Below, piece after piece: positions 10,635 through 23,097 of a DNA stretch of 64,000 nucleotides (position 1 is its first letter; each line of letters begins with the position of its first letter). A model generated the notes under the pieces. That model was not told where the DNA came from. It was given only the letters and a program-made list of their open reading frames with translations, and did not search any database. This stretch comes from Gammaproteobacteria bacterium (GTDB taxonomy: Bacteria; Pseudomonadota; Gammaproteobacteria; Steroidobacterales; Steroidobacteraceae). The stretch lies in NCBI GenBank assembly GCA_028293745.1, contig JAQGOF010000223.1, positions 1-64,000 on the forward strand. Direction: 5' to 3'. The position numbers and the translations under genes are program-made.

Positions 10635-12089
10635 ATGGCACAGGAGCTGTTGCCGGCTGCGCAGATGCAGCGACGCAAGCTTCTCATTCTGGAGAACGAT
10701 CGCAGCTTGCGCCGTGAGCTCGAGCAGATCTTTGCGGATCTGGAGGTCACGTCGACCGAGACTTCAGAGGAGGCCCTCGTCCTGGTGCGCCGCCTGGAGC
10801 CGGACGTGGTCCTGTTCGACCTGGGCGCGGCTCGCGAGCCGGCCGTGGCGGCCCAGAGCCTGGATCTGCTGCGTCAGATCCTGAATCTGTCCCCTGACAC
10901 CAAGATCATCGCCATGACCGAGCATGACGCCCGCGAGCTCGCCGTCGCGGCCGTGGGGCTCGGCGCCGCCGATTTCTATCACAAGCCGCTCGATGGCGGC
11001 GTGTTGTCCATCGTCGTGCGTCGCGCGTTCCGGATTCGCGAGCTGGAGGAGGAGAACTGGCGCCTGCGTGAGCGAACCGGCTCGATGGCGCTCGATGGCA
11101 TCATCGGTGTGAGCGATTCCATGCGCAGCGTGTGCCGCATGATCGAGAAGGTTGCTCCAACCAGCGCGACCGTGCTGCTGCTCGGTGACAGCGGCACGGG
11201 CAAGGAGCTGCTGGCGCGCGCCGTTCACAGGCTTTCCGGCCGTTCACACCTGCAGTTTGTCGCCATCAACTGCGCGGCCATCCCGGACAACCTGCTCGAG
11301 AGCGAGTTGTTCGGTTACGAGAAGGGCGCGTTCACGGGCGCCGCCAGGACAACACCCGGCAAACTCGAAGCGGCCAACGGCGGCACCGTCTTTCTCGATG
11401 AGATCGGGGAGATGCCCGCATCGCTGCAGGCGAAAATGTTGCGCGTACTGCAGGAGCGGACCGTGGAGCGGATCGGGGGGCGCACGCCCATTCCGCTCGA
11501 TCTGCGCATCATCTGCGCAACCAACCGCAAACTCGACGTCCTCATCGGTACCGGCGCGTTCCGCGACGATCTGTTCTACCGTATCAGCGAAGTGGCCATC
11601 CGCATCCCGCCGCTGCGCGAGCGGCAGGGCGACAGCCTGTTGCTCGCACAAGTGCTGGTGCAGGAGATGGCGGCGCGTTTCAACCGGCCCACGCGCGGCC
11701 TTGCGCCCGATGCGATTCGGGCGATCCAGGCACATCGCTGGCCTGGCAACGTGCGCGAGCTGGAAAACCGCATCAAGGGCGCGGTGATCATGGCCGAAGG
11801 CTCGGTGGTCACGGCCAGTGATCTGGGATTGCAGGACCCGGGGGATGATCCCGACTATCTCAATCTGCGCGTTGCACGCCAGCGCGCCGAGGCACAGGCC
11901 GTCAGGCAGTCGCTCGCAGTCGCGAGTGGGAATCTGTCGCGCGCCGCGAAGTTGCTCGGTGTGACTCGTCCAACTCTCTACGATCTGCTCGCGAAGAATC
12001 AGATCGATCCTGCCCAGTTCGGCCGCTCGGCAGCGGCACCCGACGATCCGTCGCTGGGAGACGGATCGCCGGAGCCGCGCGAGGTTTGA
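10635..12089 (+). CDS. prsR: Sigma-54 response regulator, PEP-CTERM-box type (PrsR-like)
   Basis: NtrC-family activator of 484 aa. The receiver domain (about 14-130) has KLLILEND at its start, phospho-acceptor Asp62 in VVLFDLG and Lys117 in FYHKP. The AAA+ domain has Walker A GDSGTGKE (184-191), the sigma-54 contact loop GAFTGA (231-236) and GGTVFLDEIGEMP. A Fis-type helix-turn-helix closes the protein (AAKLLGVTRPTLYDLL). The receiver layout and the RPTLYDL ending match the response regulators that control exosortase A-associated exopolysaccharide genes. The start is supported by GGAGG nine bases before the ATG. No partner histidine kinase is in the window; in related loci a PrsK-type kinase usually lies nearby. 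Likely targets are the sigma-54-like elements at 33482 and 44849, which is inference. Confidence 0.92.
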   Translation: MAQELLPAAQMQRRKLLILENDRSLRRELEQIFADLEVTSTETSEEALVLVRRLEPDVVLFDLGAAREPAVAAQSLDLLRQILNLSPDTKIIAMTEHDARELAVAAVGLGAADFYHKPLDGGVLSIVVRRAFRIRELEEENWRLRERTGSMALDGIIGVSDSMRSVCRMIEKVAPTSATVLLLGDSGTGKELLARAVHRLSGRSHLQFVAINCAAIPDNLLESELFGYEKGAFTGAARTTPGKLEAANGGTVFLDEIGEMPASLQAKMLRVLQERTVERIGGRTPIPLDLRIICATNRKLDVLIGTGAFRDDLFYRISEVAIRIPPLRERQGDSLLLAQVLVQEMAARFNRPTRGLAPDAIRAIQAHRWPGNVRELENRIKGAVIMAEGSVVTASDLGLQDPGDDPDYLNLRVARQRAEAQAVRQSLAVASGNLSRAAKLLGVTRPTLYDLLAKNQIDPAQFGRSAAAPDDPSLGDGSPEPREV

Positions 12090-12097
12090 CCGGCTGC

Positions 12098-12790
12098 TCA
12101 GTCCACCTGCGTGGCTACTTCGCCCGAGAGGGAGCTTTCCTTGCCCGAGGCGTTATAGGCCGTCACGGCAAAGTAGTATGTGCCCGTCGGCAGATTCTGC
12201 ACTACGTACGTTGTGAGTCCGGCATTGGAGACCTGGATGCTGTCCGAGTAGCTCTTGGACGCCGAGCCGTAGTGAACCTTGTACCCCTTGAGGTCCATGA
12301 GCGCCGAGCCGTCCGAATTCTCGGTCGGCGCCTGCCACGACAGTGTCACCGTGTTCGACTTGCTGGTGGCCGCTGCAACTGTGATGGTGAACGCTGGGAG
12401 TGCGACGACGTTGGCGCCGCTCACGAGGTTGATGGTAATCCCGGGATACTGGCCAACGCTGCTGGTGTCGGGAGTGCCCGACAACTGTCCCGTGGAGGTG
12501 TTGAATTTAGCCCACGGCGGTATGTGGGCAATGGTGAATTGAGCCGTACCGCTCGTATTGACGGCCTTGGGCTGAAAAGAGTAGGGCTGGCCCGCAACGG
12601 CCGTGGTGGAAGGGATGCCCGCTACGGTGGGCGTAGTCGTCGGTGAGCGATCGATCGGAGTGGCTCCCGAGCCGGTGCTCACCGCGCTCGACCCCGAGGC
12701 GCTCGCACCACCACATCCGGTCAGGCTCCCCAGAGCCACAACCATCCCCGCAACCAACATCGAATGCAAACCGAAACCCGCTTTCGTCAT
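12098..12790 (-). CDS. Lipoprotein with Ig-like and fibronectin III domains
   Basis: Exported lipoprotein of 230 aa. The signal peptide ends in the lipobox L-T-G-C, then comes a Ser/Thr/Gly-rich linker. The first domain is a putative Ig (He_PIG) domain with AVAGQPYSFQPKA, PPWAKFNTSTGQLSGTP. The second is a fibronectin type III domain with VTLSWQAPTENSDGS, GYKVHYG and GTYYFAVTAYNASGKES at the C-terminus. Such domains bind carbohydrate or mediate adhesion, so a surface or matrix role is likely. The ATG at 12790 is preceded by GGGGG; an upstream extension to 12985 would encode the leader RNA, not protein. The gene sits behind a class I c-di-GMP riboswitch, so its expression should follow c-di-GMP level. 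It converges on the PrsR-like gene with an 8-base gap. Confidence 0.85.
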   Translation of the reverse strand: MTKAGFGLHSMLVAGMVVALGSLTGCGGASASGSSAVSTGSGATPIDRSPTTTPTVAGIPSTTAVAGQPYSFQPKAVNTSGTAQFTIAHIPPWAKFNTSTGQLSGTPDTSSVGQYPGITINLVSGANVVALPAFTITVAAATSKSNTVTLSWQAPTENSDGSALMDLKGYKVHYGSASKSYSDSIQVSNAGLTTYVVQNLPTGTYYFAVTAYNASGKESSLSGEVATQVD

Positions 12791-12794
12791 CTGA

Positions 12795-12941
12795 AAGACC
12801 CCCGGCAACGCCGTAAAAAACAAAATCGGGCGGCGAGCCTCGGGGCGGACACTCTCGAGCCAAAAAGCGGGTTGCCGGACGATGCTGCTGCATCGTCCGT
12901 TAACGAAATCGCGGCTTGATGAGCGATTCCGGCAACCCCGC
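12795..12941 (-). promoter_or_regulatory. Riboswitch expression platform with competing stems
   Basis: Read on the minus strand, the aptamer segment GCGGGGTTGCCGG (12929-12941) can pair with CCGGCAACCCGC (12867-12878), which is followed at once by TTTTT (12862-12866), giving an intrinsic terminator. The same middle segment can instead pair with GTTGCCGG (12802-12809) lying just before the ribosome binding site. A separate perfect 10-bp hairpin with loop AGCA (12876-12899) abuts the middle segment. The three complementary segments show how the aptamer could control termination and/or translation of the lipoprotein gene. Confidence 0.65.
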
Positions 12942-13015
12942 TGTCGTAGGCTCGTGCCGTTAGACCGGAGGTTTTGCGCCCCCATCTTTCGATGGGTTTG
13001 CCCTTATGTGCACTC
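12921..13015 (-). ncRNA. Cyclic di-GMP-I (GEMM) riboswitch aptamer
   Basis: On the minus strand the sequence matches the GEMM-I consensus point by point. The segment AAGGGCAAACC is followed by a CCCATC stem capped by a GAAA tetraloop (12987-12990). Next come GCGCAAAACCTCCGG (12965-12979) and TCTAA, then GCGGGGTTGCCGG (12929-12941) near the 3' side. Closing pairs GAGTG (13011-13015) and CGCTC (12921-12925) form P1. The base equivalent to Vc2 G20 is G, which favours c-di-GMP over cyclic GMP-AMP, and the A of the conserved GCAAA (Vc2 A47) is kept. It lies 130 bases before the ATG of the Ig/FN3 lipoprotein gene, on the same strand. Confidence 0.92.
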
Positions 13016-13249: not shown

Positions 13250-14728
13250 TTGGATAATCGGTGGTCGGTCGCGGGATCTGTGCTGTCCGGGTACGATGAC
13301 GGGATGACCAATCCCGTTGTGTTGAAGCACACGCTACCCATGGTAGCGCTGACGATCGCGCAGGGAATTGCCCTGCCGTGCTTCGCCACCGGCCTGCTGG
13401 CGCTCGAGTGCTGGTATTTCGGCGCGCCCTTCGATCAGCCCTTCGTGCTGCTGCTGACGCTCGTCATGGTGTTGGGAGCGGTGCTGCTGCAGCCGGAGCG
13501 TGGGCTCATGCCGCAGCTGATCGGCGGCCGCCGCAAGCTGGTCACCCGGCTGGCACTGCGCTGGCTGATCCTGCTGTTTGCGCTGCTGACCGTGGGTTAC
13601 GCGACCAAGAGCTCCGAAGATTTCTCGCGCCGGGTGGTGTTGACTTGGGCCGTTACGACGCCGGGATTCCTCGTGGGCATCGCTCTGCTCATCCACGAGG
13701 CTCTCAAGCAGCTCCTCGCGGATCCGGAAAGTGCCCGCCGTGCGATTTTCGCGGGCTACAACGAGATCAGCGTTTCACTCGCGCAGCGTGTCGAGCGCAC
13801 ATCAGCCTCCGCATTGCGGATCGAAGGCTTCTTCGACGACCGCGCCCCGCAGCGTCTGGGCGCGCAGACATCGGAAGCGCTGGCGTTCGAGCCAGCGCTC
13901 AGGGGCGGCCTGAAGGATATCGTCGCCTACGTGCAACAGAATGCGATCGATGTCATTTTCGTTGCGCTGCCGGTCAGCCACATCACCCGGGTCCAAACAC
14001 TGCTCGACGACCTGCGCGATACCACCGTTTCCATCTATTACGTGCCCATGGTGTTTCCGCTCGACTCCATCCAGGGCGGCACCAGCGAGTTCCTGGGAGT
14101 CCCGCTGATCGCGCTGTGCGAGACGCCGTTTCACGGCTCGCGCGGTGTCAGCAAGCGCCTCACGGACCTGACGCTGGCCTCCCTCATACTCATACCGGCC
14201 GCGCCGTTCATGCTGATCATCGCGCTGTTGGTCCGGCTGTCTTCGCCGGGCCCGGTCATTTTCAAACAGCCCCGCTACGGGCTCGATGGCCGGCTGATCA
14301 TCGTGTACAAGTTTCGCACCATGCGGGTGACGGAAGACGGCGATTCGATCCGCCAGGCCACCCAGTCGGACTCCAGGATCACCTCCCTCGGGCGCCTCCT
14401 GCGCCGCACCTCGATCGATGAATTGCCGCAACTGCTCAACGTTCTGCAGGGCCGGATGAGCCTGGTCGGCCCACGGCCACATGCCGTTGCCCACAACGAG
14501 CTGTATCGCAAGTTGATCAAGGGCTACATGCTGCGGCACAAAGTGACCCCGGGCATGACGGGTCTCGCCCAGGTGCACGGCATGCGTGGTGAGACTCAGA
14601 CGCTTGAGCAGATGGAAGCCCGTCTGAAATATGACCTCGATTACCTGCGCAACTGGTCGCCGCTGCTGGACCTGAAGATTCTCTTCAAGACGCTGCTGAT
14701 CGTGGTGCGCGGCGAGAAGGCCTACTGA
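13250..14728 (+). CDS. Polyprenyl glycosylphosphotransferase (WcaJ-like)
   Basis: Initiating enzyme that transfers a sugar 1-phosphate from UDP-sugar to undecaprenyl phosphate at the inner membrane. Up to 492 aa. The N-terminal half has about four membrane helices and a Rossmann-like CoA-binding domain (FAGYNEISVSLAQRV to DVIFVALP). A further helix near 310-330 precedes the catalytic bacterial sugar transferase domain with PGPVIFKQPRYG, YKFRTM, SIDELPQLLNVL, MSLVGPRPHA and PGMTGLAQV. The TTG at 13250 has GAGG five bases upstream; the ATG at 13304 is an alternative start that leaves all domains intact. Its end overlaps the convergent polymerase gene by 7 bases. Glucose-1-phosphate is the usual substrate of the closest kind, but that cannot be read from sequence. 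Confidence 0.92.
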   Translation: MDNRWSVAGSVLSGYDDGMTNPVVLKHTLPMVALTIAQGIALPCFATGLLALECWYFGAPFDQPFVLLLTLVMVLGAVLLQPERGLMPQLIGGRRKLVTRLALRWLILLFALLTVGYATKSSEDFSRRVVLTWAVTTPGFLVGIALLIHEALKQLLADPESARRAIFAGYNEISVSLAQRVERTSASALRIEGFFDDRAPQRLGAQTSEALAFEPALRGGLKDIVAYVQQNAIDVIFVALPVSHITRVQTLLDDLRDTTVSIYYVPMVFPLDSIQGGTSEFLGVPLIALCETPFHGSRGVSKRLTDLTLASLILIPAAPFMLIIALLVRLSSPGPVIFKQPRYGLDGRLIIVYKFRTMRVTEDGDSIRQATQSDSRITSLGRLLRRTSIDELPQLLNVLQGRMSLVGPRPHAVAHNELYRKLIKGYMLRHKVTPGMTGLAQVHGMRGETQTLEQMEARLKYDLDYLRNWSPLLDLKILFKTLLIVVRGEKAY

Positions 14729-21669: not shown

Positions 21670-23097
21670 GTGCTCTTCAACTCGATCCAGTTCCTGGTTT
21701 TCTTCCCGTTGGTAGCCGCCGCGTATTTCGCGGCTCCGCAGCGCCTGCGCTGGGCGCTGCTGCTCGGCGCGAGCTGCTACTTCTACATGGCCTTCATCCC
21801 CGTCTATATCCTCATCCTCGTGCTGACCATCCTGGTCGACTACTTCGCAGCGCTGTATATCGAGTCAGCCACCGGTGCCCGCCGGCGCATGGGCCTGGTG
21901 GTCAGCATCGTAAGCACGTGTCTCATACTGTTCTTCTTCAAGTACTACGACTTCGTCATTTCCAACATCAATACGGTGGCGGCCGCAACCGGTATCGGCC
22001 TGGCGCTCACCCCCCTTGGGCTGATCCTGCCGATCGGGCTGTCGTTTCATACTTTCCAGAGCCTGTCGTACGTCATCGAGGTGTACTGGGGCAAGCAGCG
22101 TGCGCAGCGGCACTTCGGCATCTATGCGCTCTACGTGATGTTCTTTCCGCAACTGGTCGCAGGTCCCATCGAGCGGCCGCAGAATCTTCTGCATCAGTTC
22201 TATGAGCGCCACGATCTCGATTACGTGCGCATCCGGGACGGCCTGCGGCAGATGCTGTGGGGATTCTTCAAGAAGCTGGTGGTCGCCGACCGCCTGGCGA
22301 TATACGTCAACACCATCTACGGCAACCTGGAGCACCACACCGGTCCCACGATTGCGCTGGCCACGGTGTTCTTTGCTTTTCAGATCTACTGTGACTTCTC
22401 CGCGTACTCGGACATCGCGATTGGAGCCGCCAGGGTGCTGGGCTTCTCGCTGATGACCAATTTCCATAAGCCGTATTTTTCACGCAGCATCAGCGAGTTC
22501 TGGCGTCGCTGGCATATCTCCCTGTCTACGTGGTTCAAGGACTACGTCTACGTGCCCTTGGGCGGCAACAGGGTGCCGCGCCCCAGGTGGGCTTTCAACA
22601 TCCTGTTCACCTTCACCATCAGCGGGTTGTGGCATGGAGCGGCCTGGACGTACATCATCTGGGGCGCGCTGAACGGAGTTTACCTGGTGGCCTCCACGAG
22701 CCTGCAGGGCACTCGCGAGGCAGTGGCGCGGGCGATTGGCCTGTTACGCTGGCCCCGCCTGCACCAGTTCCTGAAGATCGCCGTGACGTTCGGTCTGACA
22801 TGCATCGCGTGGGTGTTCTTCCGGGCCCCCGGTTTCGATGAGGCGCTGGCGGCGTTGCATCACATGCTGTGGAATTGGGGCCCGGTGTTTACGGGAGGGG
22901 CGAAGGAGTTGATCTACGGGGCCCTGGGTATTGCTGTCGTATTGGCCGTGGACGCGTGGAGCGGCGAGCGTCACTTCCATGAAGCCGTCGGCGCCCGGCC
23001 GCAGGTAGAGCGCTGGGCGATCTACCTGGTGCTGATTCTCTGGATCTTGAGTGCAGGTGTATTCAATGCCTCTCAGTTCATCTACTTCCAGTTCTAA
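21670..23097 (+). CDS. MBOAT O-acyltransferase (AlgI-like), copy 1
   Basis: Polytopic membrane O-acyltransferase of 475 aa, GTG start. It shows the AlgI pattern: MLFNSIQFLVFFPLV at the N-terminus, FFKYYDF, LPIGLSFHTFQSLSYVIEVY, FFPQLVAGPIERP, the SEFWRRWHISLSTWFKDYVY signature split around residues 280-297, and the catalytic histidine in SGLWHGAAWTYIIWG near 320. AlgI passes acetyl groups across the inner membrane to a periplasmic partner that acetylates the exported polymer. The SGNH gene overlapping its 3' end is the expected partner. A second such pair lies at 61254-63729. Confidence 0.94.
   Translation: MLFNSIQFLVFFPLVAAAYFAAPQRLRWALLLGASCYFYMAFIPVYILILVLTILVDYFAALYIESATGARRRMGLVVSIVSTCLILFFFKYYDFVISNINTVAAATGIGLALTPLGLILPIGLSFHTFQSLSYVIEVYWGKQRAQRHFGIYALYVMFFPQLVAGPIERPQNLLHQFYERHDLDYVRIRDGLRQMLWGFFKKLVVADRLAIYVNTIYGNLEHHTGPTIALATVFFAFQIYCDFSAYSDIAIGAARVLGFSLMTNFHKPYFSRSISEFWRRWHISLSTWFKDYVYVPLGGNRVPRPRWAFNILFTFTISGLWHGAAWTYIIWGALNGVYLVASTSLQGTREAVARAIGLLRWPRLHQFLKIAVTFGLTCIAWVFFRAPGFDEALAALHHMLWNWGPVFTGGAKELIYGALGIAVVLAVDAWSGERHFHEAVGARPQVERWAIYLVLILWILSAGVFNASQFIYFQF

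Follow-up and report, generated by a model that had tools for sequence, protein, structure and literature searches.

The leader of a lipoprotein gene on the minus strand of the window (the whole stretch of DNA that was analysed, 64,000 nucleotides) appears to be a c-di-GMP-I riboswitch that works mainly as a translational OFF switch, a reading to which we give a probability of a little under one half (about 0.48). According to this reading, the 3' arm of the aptamer, segment A, would leave the aptamer when no ligand is bound, pair with a downstream segment, B, and close a three-way junction that carries two side hairpins. With the junction formed, B would be occupied and the start region of the gene would be easier to open. 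With c-di-GMP, A would stay in the aptamer and B would be free. Free B, together with part of the U-run that follows it, would then pair with codons 3-6 of the gene, and the ribosome binding site and the start would be folded into a long hairpin. The reading presumes that the predicted folds are those followed in the cell, that the outcome for protein is repression, and that the U-run, a possible terminator tail, is not dominant.

Aptamer and target gene

The aptamer is found at positions 13012-12928 of the minus strand, where cmscan matched the c-di-GMP-I (GEMM-I) family RF01051 with 82 bits (E 1.4e-14) against a gathering score of 35. The initial annotation had recognized a GEMM-I aptamer, a GAAA loop and the G that selects c-di-GMP, and the Infernal match and the alignment bear out all three. 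The selecting G occupies aptamer position 12 (window 13001) and is the equivalent of G20 in Vc2 and G12 in Vc1. By alignment, the ligand-contact residues correspond to G12 at 13001, A39 at 12974 and the first C of GCC at 12932 (G20, A47 and C92 in Vc2 numbering, with roles described in the accessible part of PMC4744006), and each is the same residue in all 26 aligned aptamers, the window copy counted. Within the 64-kb window the aptamer is the sole RNA-family match at gathering threshold; the source genome (6.9 Mb) holds seven RF01051 aptamers including this one, and at least one GEMM-I aptamer was found in 105 of the 147 genomes searched across the order. 3',3'-cGAMP (GEMM-Ib) riboswitches carry A rather than G at the specificity position, as presumably does the pilM riboswitch of Geobacter metallireducens. 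This class is ruled out for the window aptamer by the G at 13001. The aptamer is, by its sequence, an ordinary member of the c-di-GMP-I family, and binding of the ligand is predicted.

The gene behind the leader (12098-12790, minus strand) encodes a protein of 230 amino acids with a lipobox, LTGC, read from the sequence, and with matches to the domains He_PIG (E 1.4e-9) and fn3 (E 7.5e-8), in agreement with the Ig/FN3 lipoprotein that had been proposed as the target. A likely Shine-Dalgarno (SD) sequence, GGGGG (12799-12803, minus strand), was read 8 nt 5' of the AUG. The gene adjoins a WcaJ-type undecaprenyl-phosphate glucose phosphotransferase (13250-14728, plus strand) and a PEP-CTERM-box response regulator (10635-12089; TIGR02915, 595 bits), two neighbors that make an exopolysaccharide locus probable. 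The partnership of riboswitch and lipoprotein is recurrent and not the rule, since 25 of the 146 leaders obtained by the riboswitch/leader search have a He_PIG/fn3 lipoprotein homolog on the same strand within at most 1.5 kb; a further 19 leaders, from loci found by protein, all have the homolog by selection. In one case (L005 and L006, G000:C70:20754-20841 and 21827-21914) two closely similar aptamers, separated by about 1 kb, each precede their own fn3-type lipoprotein gene, apparently a duplicated riboswitch-gene unit.

A predicted three-way junction and a candidate terminator

Segment A (GCGGGGUUGC, 12932-12941, minus strand) holds the ligand-pairing C and lies, depending on the fold, in P3 and the ligand site of the aptamer or in the alternative junction. 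Segment B (GCAACCCGC, 12867-12875, minus strand) is predicted to pair with A in the open state of the aptamer and, once the aptamer is held, with codons 3-6. The A:B pairing closes a three-way junction around hairpin 1 (12904-12931; 9 bp, CGGAAUCGC / GCGAUUUCG), a UUAA linker (12900-12903) and hairpin 2 (12876-12899; 10 bp with a 4-nt loop, CGGACGAUGC AGCA GCAUCGUCCG), all on the minus strand, and in the fold there are zero unpaired bases at the borders between A and hairpin 1 and between hairpin 2 and B. In the initial annotation the leader had been described in terms of three 8-mers. These are present at 12936-12929, 12878-12871 and 12809-12802, and competition of the middle one for the 3' arm of the aptamer holds up, but the competing unit is really GCAACCCGC:GCGGGGUUGC in a three-way junction, and the outer ends of the 8-mers fall in the two side hairpins. 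Vc1 and Vc2 (RF01051) are like the window aptamer in sequence, structure and ligand-contact residues, as far as the accessible part of PMC4744006 goes; the window platform differs from theirs by its three-way junction and by the predicted pairing with the coding sequence. The same source, in that part, describes Vc1 as an ON switch with no apparent Rho-independent terminator or anti-SD.

When the segment from A to B is folded by itself, the junction is the best fold in three sequences: the window copy (L002), the leader of its ortholog (L176) and a second GEMM-I leader of the source genome (L007), which precedes a different gene. All three form an outer stem of 9 bp, a hairpin 1 of 9 bp, in L176 with one internal mismatch, and a hairpin 2 of 10 bp, and the UUAA linker is identical in them. 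In hairpin 2 all 30 of the 30 cells across the three sequences are standard pairs, with one bulge in L007, and by a count of the pair lists each of the ten pairs has both letters replaced in one sequence or more. At full length L176 has the junction in its best fold as well; the best fold of full-length L007 keeps the aptamer, and the junction is the likeliest pairing of A in the ensemble. The pattern made up of the end of A, hairpin 1 and UUAA occurs at three places in 58 genomes, two in the source genome and one in genome G009, and the reversed control pattern gave zero matches in the same 58 genomes. There is good evidence, drawn from these three sequences, that the alternative junction has been kept by selection.

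The ortholog in G009 (58% identity; the next protein has 45%) is the one close ortholog of the lipoprotein gene among the 58 genomes of the genus, the source genome included. Its leader, L176, contains a GEMM-I aptamer that scores 90.8 bits with model R1, and the gene adjoins an apparently equivalent divergent gene, whose antisense frame resembles that of the window sugar transferase. A scan of contigs for further orthologs yielded 14 loci, mostly from gammaproteobacterial or unassigned proteobacterial metagenome assemblies. Thirteen have 30-51% identity; the other, L213 (JAFEDS010000013.1, isolate SZAS-87), is by its coordinates apparently the same locus as G009/L176. A search of the 58 genus genomes with the platform and early coding DNA returned the own locus and eight short matches of 28-49 bases in other genomes, and no close copy.

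B is followed by UUUUU (12862-12866, minus strand), a possible terminator tail seen in the sequence and the folds. The run had been placed directly after CCGGCAAC, the middle 8-mer; CCGC (12870-12867) intervenes. What defines a terminator riboswitch, a stem that excludes the aptamer and a U-run directly behind it, is found in A:B and UUUUU, and the leader could accordingly be read as a transcriptional ON switch in which A:B and the U-run would terminate transcription at low c-di-GMP and the ligand, by keeping A in the aptamer, would allow read-through. We regard this as unlikely in spite of several features in its favor. When the platform was dinucleotide-shuffled 3,000 times, 0.27% of the shuffles reached an A:B pairing this strong before a U-run (p 0.0027), and the pairing is the strongest among 158 leaders (-27.0; next -21.9). 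A classical terminator formula gives the U-run a positive score of 22. Nascent RNA ending at the U-run has -63.9 kcal/mol in the free and -60.5 kcal/mol in the aptamer-held state, values (ligand energy excluded) that lie so close that ligand binding could decide between terminator and aptamer. No more than five U make up the run, GG comes next, and roughly three of these U are accounted for by pairing with the AAA of codon 3 while the aptamer is held. A simple terminator scan found none here, although its limit to loops of 3-8 would miss this shape. The U-run is absent after B in both L176 and L007; the terminator is thus without conservation in the one ortholog, and the junction is probably kept for a reason other than termination. 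To judge from these sequences, termination would be at best a local addition.

Two published systems bear on the transcriptional ON reading. In the pilM riboswitch of Geobacter metallireducens the terminator also removes the ligand-pairing C, in that, as in the window, a downstream strand takes the 3' arm of the aptamer in which that C resides, according to the text available of PMC9262584; aptamer and alternative fold are mutually exclusive because of this strand exchange. The Geobacter riboswitch differs from the window leader in that it responds to cGAMP, turns pilM ON and does so by means of a terminator (same part of PMC9262584). Bc2, in the portion of PMC4933901 that was accessible, is a switch turned ON by antitermination for a collagen adhesion protein. 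It has in common with the window leader a GEMM-I aptamer before a surface adhesion-type gene and a possible terminator; for the window leader, by contrast, translational OFF is what the class-level computation suggests.

Three observations touch the same region. A general terminator of this kind in the order was rejected, as just 7 of 158 leaders have an A:B-type energy below -18 before a U-run. CGAGCC of the aptamer (12954-12949) can pair in the free fold with GGCUCG past the U-run (12861-12856), which would lengthen the A:B structure beyond the U-run and could be due to chance. A second U-rich run, UUUUGUUUUUU (12825-12815, minus strand), lies 3' of the junction and 5' of the SD, and no stem was detected ahead of it by the terminator scan.

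Predicted pairing with the coding sequence and access to the start

The translational OFF reading turns on what B would pair with once the aptamer is held. Codons 3-6 contain segment C' (AAAGCGGGTT, 12775-12784, minus strand), the exact 10-nt complement of AACCCGCTTT (12873-12864), which spans B and part of the U-run. We take the complementarity as moderate evidence: against 5,000 shuffles an exact match of 10 nt has a p of 0.001, whereas B:C' does not stand out by its duplex energy (p 0.11 across the region downstream, 0.066 for the start region). The pair probabilities between C' and B plus the U-run add up to 9.7 pairs in the aptamer-held and 0.6 in the free state. Opening of the region from -15 to +5 around the AUG is predicted to cost 14.5 kcal/mol with the aptamer held versus 8.6 kcal/mol free, a shift of 5.9 kcal/mol; these and all other energies are equilibrium predictions. 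The direction of the predicted change is constant: however upstream length, coding length and temperature were set, the window copy gave a positive shift (30 of 30 settings, 2.5 to 7.6 kcal/mol).

The initial annotation had assigned the block of translation to pairing of the middle segment with an SD-proximal 8-mer, GTTGCCGG (12802-12809, minus strand). This pairing is not predicted, the summed pair probability with B being 0.0 in the free and in the aptamer-held state; on this ground GTTGCCGG was rejected as a third partner of B. As an 8-nt repeat the third copy has a p of 0.024 in 5,000 shuffles, weaker evidence than that for A:B before the U-run. The predicted partner of GTTGCCGG in both states is segment D (CCGCCCCGAG, 12839-12848, minus strand), which in the folds of both states pairs with the SD region. 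The shift of 5.9 kcal/mol falls to 0.0 when B is kept single-stranded, to 0.7 with C', 1.5 with the U-run and 1.4 with the GTTGCCGG segment, and to -2.7 kcal/mol with D. Because most of the shift is lost whichever of these segments is masked, we take B:C' and the D hairpin to close the start together.

Since the pairing of D with the SD is predicted in both states, translation may be low regardless of the ligand. When a slightly longer stretch was folded, the SD in the free state was partly open and in the best fold partnered elsewhere. The occupied SD would also fit a further explanation, which we consider quite improbable, namely that the aptamer binds c-di-GMP with little regulatory consequence and the alternative folds are by-products of a G+C-rich leader. 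That leaders of the order vary widely 3' of the aptamer agrees with this explanation, whereas the retention of the junction with changed letters in three leaders, the z-score of -3.57 of the leader fold, and a class-level shift that is absent in shuffles and rare in pilM and M23 leaders argue against it.

The two other leaders with the junction were treated in the same way. In the ortholog leader L176 the shift is positive in 60 of 60 settings over two candidate starts (1.4 to 10.1 kcal/mol), and it arises there without B:C' pairing: with B masked, +6.5 of the +8.6 remains, and a CACCC stretch is needed for closure. L007 shows a shift of +0.2 at the likely start and of -2.3 at an alternative start.

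The initial annotation had suggested two routes at once. Terminator and start-block could indeed coexist; it had not mentioned that their predicted signs are opposite, the terminator route being a c-di-GMP ON signal and the start-block route an OFF signal. If both operated, the leader would be an incoherent dual switch: at low c-di-GMP most transcripts would stop and those that pass would be translatable, while at high c-di-GMP transcripts would pass with their start closed, so that little protein would be made at either extreme, or output would be buffered against changes in c-di-GMP. The presence of both elements in one leader speaks for such a switch, and the lack of conservation of its terminator half makes it rather unlikely. 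There is a precedent in Bc1 of Bacillus thuringiensis, for which this behavior was proposed from experiments, with terminators and an open ribosome binding site at low c-di-GMP and a closed site at high c-di-GMP, as reported in the accessible part of PMC11218506. Bc1 and the window leader are alike in the terminator at low ligand, the closed start at high ligand and the long platform. They differ in that Bc1 has two terminators (PMC11218506, same part) and a chemotaxis-receptor target (PMC4933901, portion available), whereas the window leader has a single short U-run, precedes a lipoprotein gene and can form a three-way junction. The SAM-II metA riboswitch of Sinorhizobium meliloti is likewise a single riboswitch with incoherent dual regulation, according to the available text of PMC9373788; its ligand, aptamer and gene all differ from those of the window riboswitch. 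In the window leader a terminator and a start-block that act in opposite directions would share one short segment, which makes the leader a natural test of the question raised by Bc1.

Leaders across the order

Support for the translational OFF switch was sought in other GEMM-I leaders. Model R1 gave 87 plus 80 matches, reduced to 158 leaders by dropping those with less than 150 nt downstream and identical copies; 7 more brought the number to 165, of which 19 belong to loci found by protein and not by riboswitch, and two weak matches (19.8 and 18.6 bits) were left out. The loci of the order were drawn from the best matches listed and comprise 79 distinct new loci plus others already found. Gene starts were chosen by script. 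For each leader the change in opening of the start region on holding the aptamer was compared with that of leaders shuffled between the aptamer and position -18.

Among the leaders with a lipoprotein-like first gene, 20 of 38 have a shift above +2 kcal/mol and one of 38 has a shift below -2, in comparison with 13% and 5% of 456 shuffles (Mann-Whitney p 7e-7). Related leaders are not independent, and genus means, which are positive in 16 of 18 genera (Wilcoxon p 0.003), address kinship only in part. With three other settings 17, 15 and 21 of the 38 were above +2 and 3, 2 and 2 below -2, and 15, 17 and 16 of the 18 genera were positive (Wilcoxon p 0.0003 to 0.006). Before exclusions the counts were 20 of 40 and 2 of 40; the two leaders dropped, L068 (with a truncated aptamer and a value of -2.5; its locus is that of L133) and L126 (M23-like, -1.5), were both negative. 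Eight of the 40 come from loci found by protein. The shift is not confined to the He_PIG/fn3 family, because leaders with no detectable homolog also exceed +2 (11 of 18, L068 excluded; with He_PIG/fn3 homology 9 of 21). The control leaders behave differently from the lipoprotein leaders: 1 of 25 pilM leaders is above +2 and 2 of 25 are below -2, and for M23 peptidase leaders the numbers are 1 of 16 and 1 of 16. LNLC leaders are mixed (5 of 10 above +2, 2 of 10 below -2, p 0.24). When the SD window only was evaluated, with lipoprotein and M23 leaders taken together, 13 of 49 were above +2 and 4 of 49 below -2.

The OFF reading of the window leader is favored because its sign is shared by the ortholog and by these 20 lipoprotein leaders and is rare in pilM and M23 leaders. 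It is weakened by L007, which has the junction and no shift, and by the leaders of the same genus, where five of six lie below +2 and the sixth is the window copy itself. A wider generalization seems doubtful to us: the lipoprotein GEMM-I leaders of the order might form a class in which translation is OFF at high c-di-GMP, each with its own anti-start pairing, from which pilM and peptidase leaders are excluded, and to which the window copy would add a terminator of opposite sign on the same segment and an extension into the coding sequence, such that protein would be made only at intermediate or falling c-di-GMP.

High c-di-GMP is usually a signal to stick and to build matrix. Surface lipoproteins, many of the Ig/FN3 type, that are apparently switched OFF by c-di-GMP would then be proteins for the low-c-di-GMP or a transition state, and in the window such a lipoprotein would adjoin a probable exopolysaccharide locus. 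The aptamer belongs to a known family; the platform and a lipoprotein class with a common predicted sign are apparently new in the literature searched (titles and openings of abstracts, subscription papers being outside), in which no description of the junction platform or of a lipoprotein OFF class was found.

Duplex profiles compared with shuffles, from which leaders with less than 70 nt before the start were omitted, led to the rejection of a general rule that would place the anti-aptamer pairing at one set distance from the start codon. In the 40 lipoprotein leaders the excess is only mild and diffuse, upstream of about -30, and there is less pairing than in shuffles around the SD; nine M23 leaders show a local excess near -24 to -11 (z -4.1). 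In 20 pilM leaders there is an excess near -28 to -15 (z -3.9) and another inside the first pilM codons, at +14 to +29 (z -7 to -8). The pilM leaders, 25 of which were collected, one of them in the source genome (L003, 1501-1588), are very long (about 280-390 nt). Tandem GEMM-I aptamers 120-159 nt apart were observed at eight loci (L039, L046, L045, L044, L048, L038, L042 and L132), seven of which precede a lipoprotein-like gene. A further GEMM-I target has the motif G-P-F-V-L-N-L-C near its N-terminus (L001, L054, L065, L149, L139 and L150) and is preceded by short leaders of about 60-110 nt.
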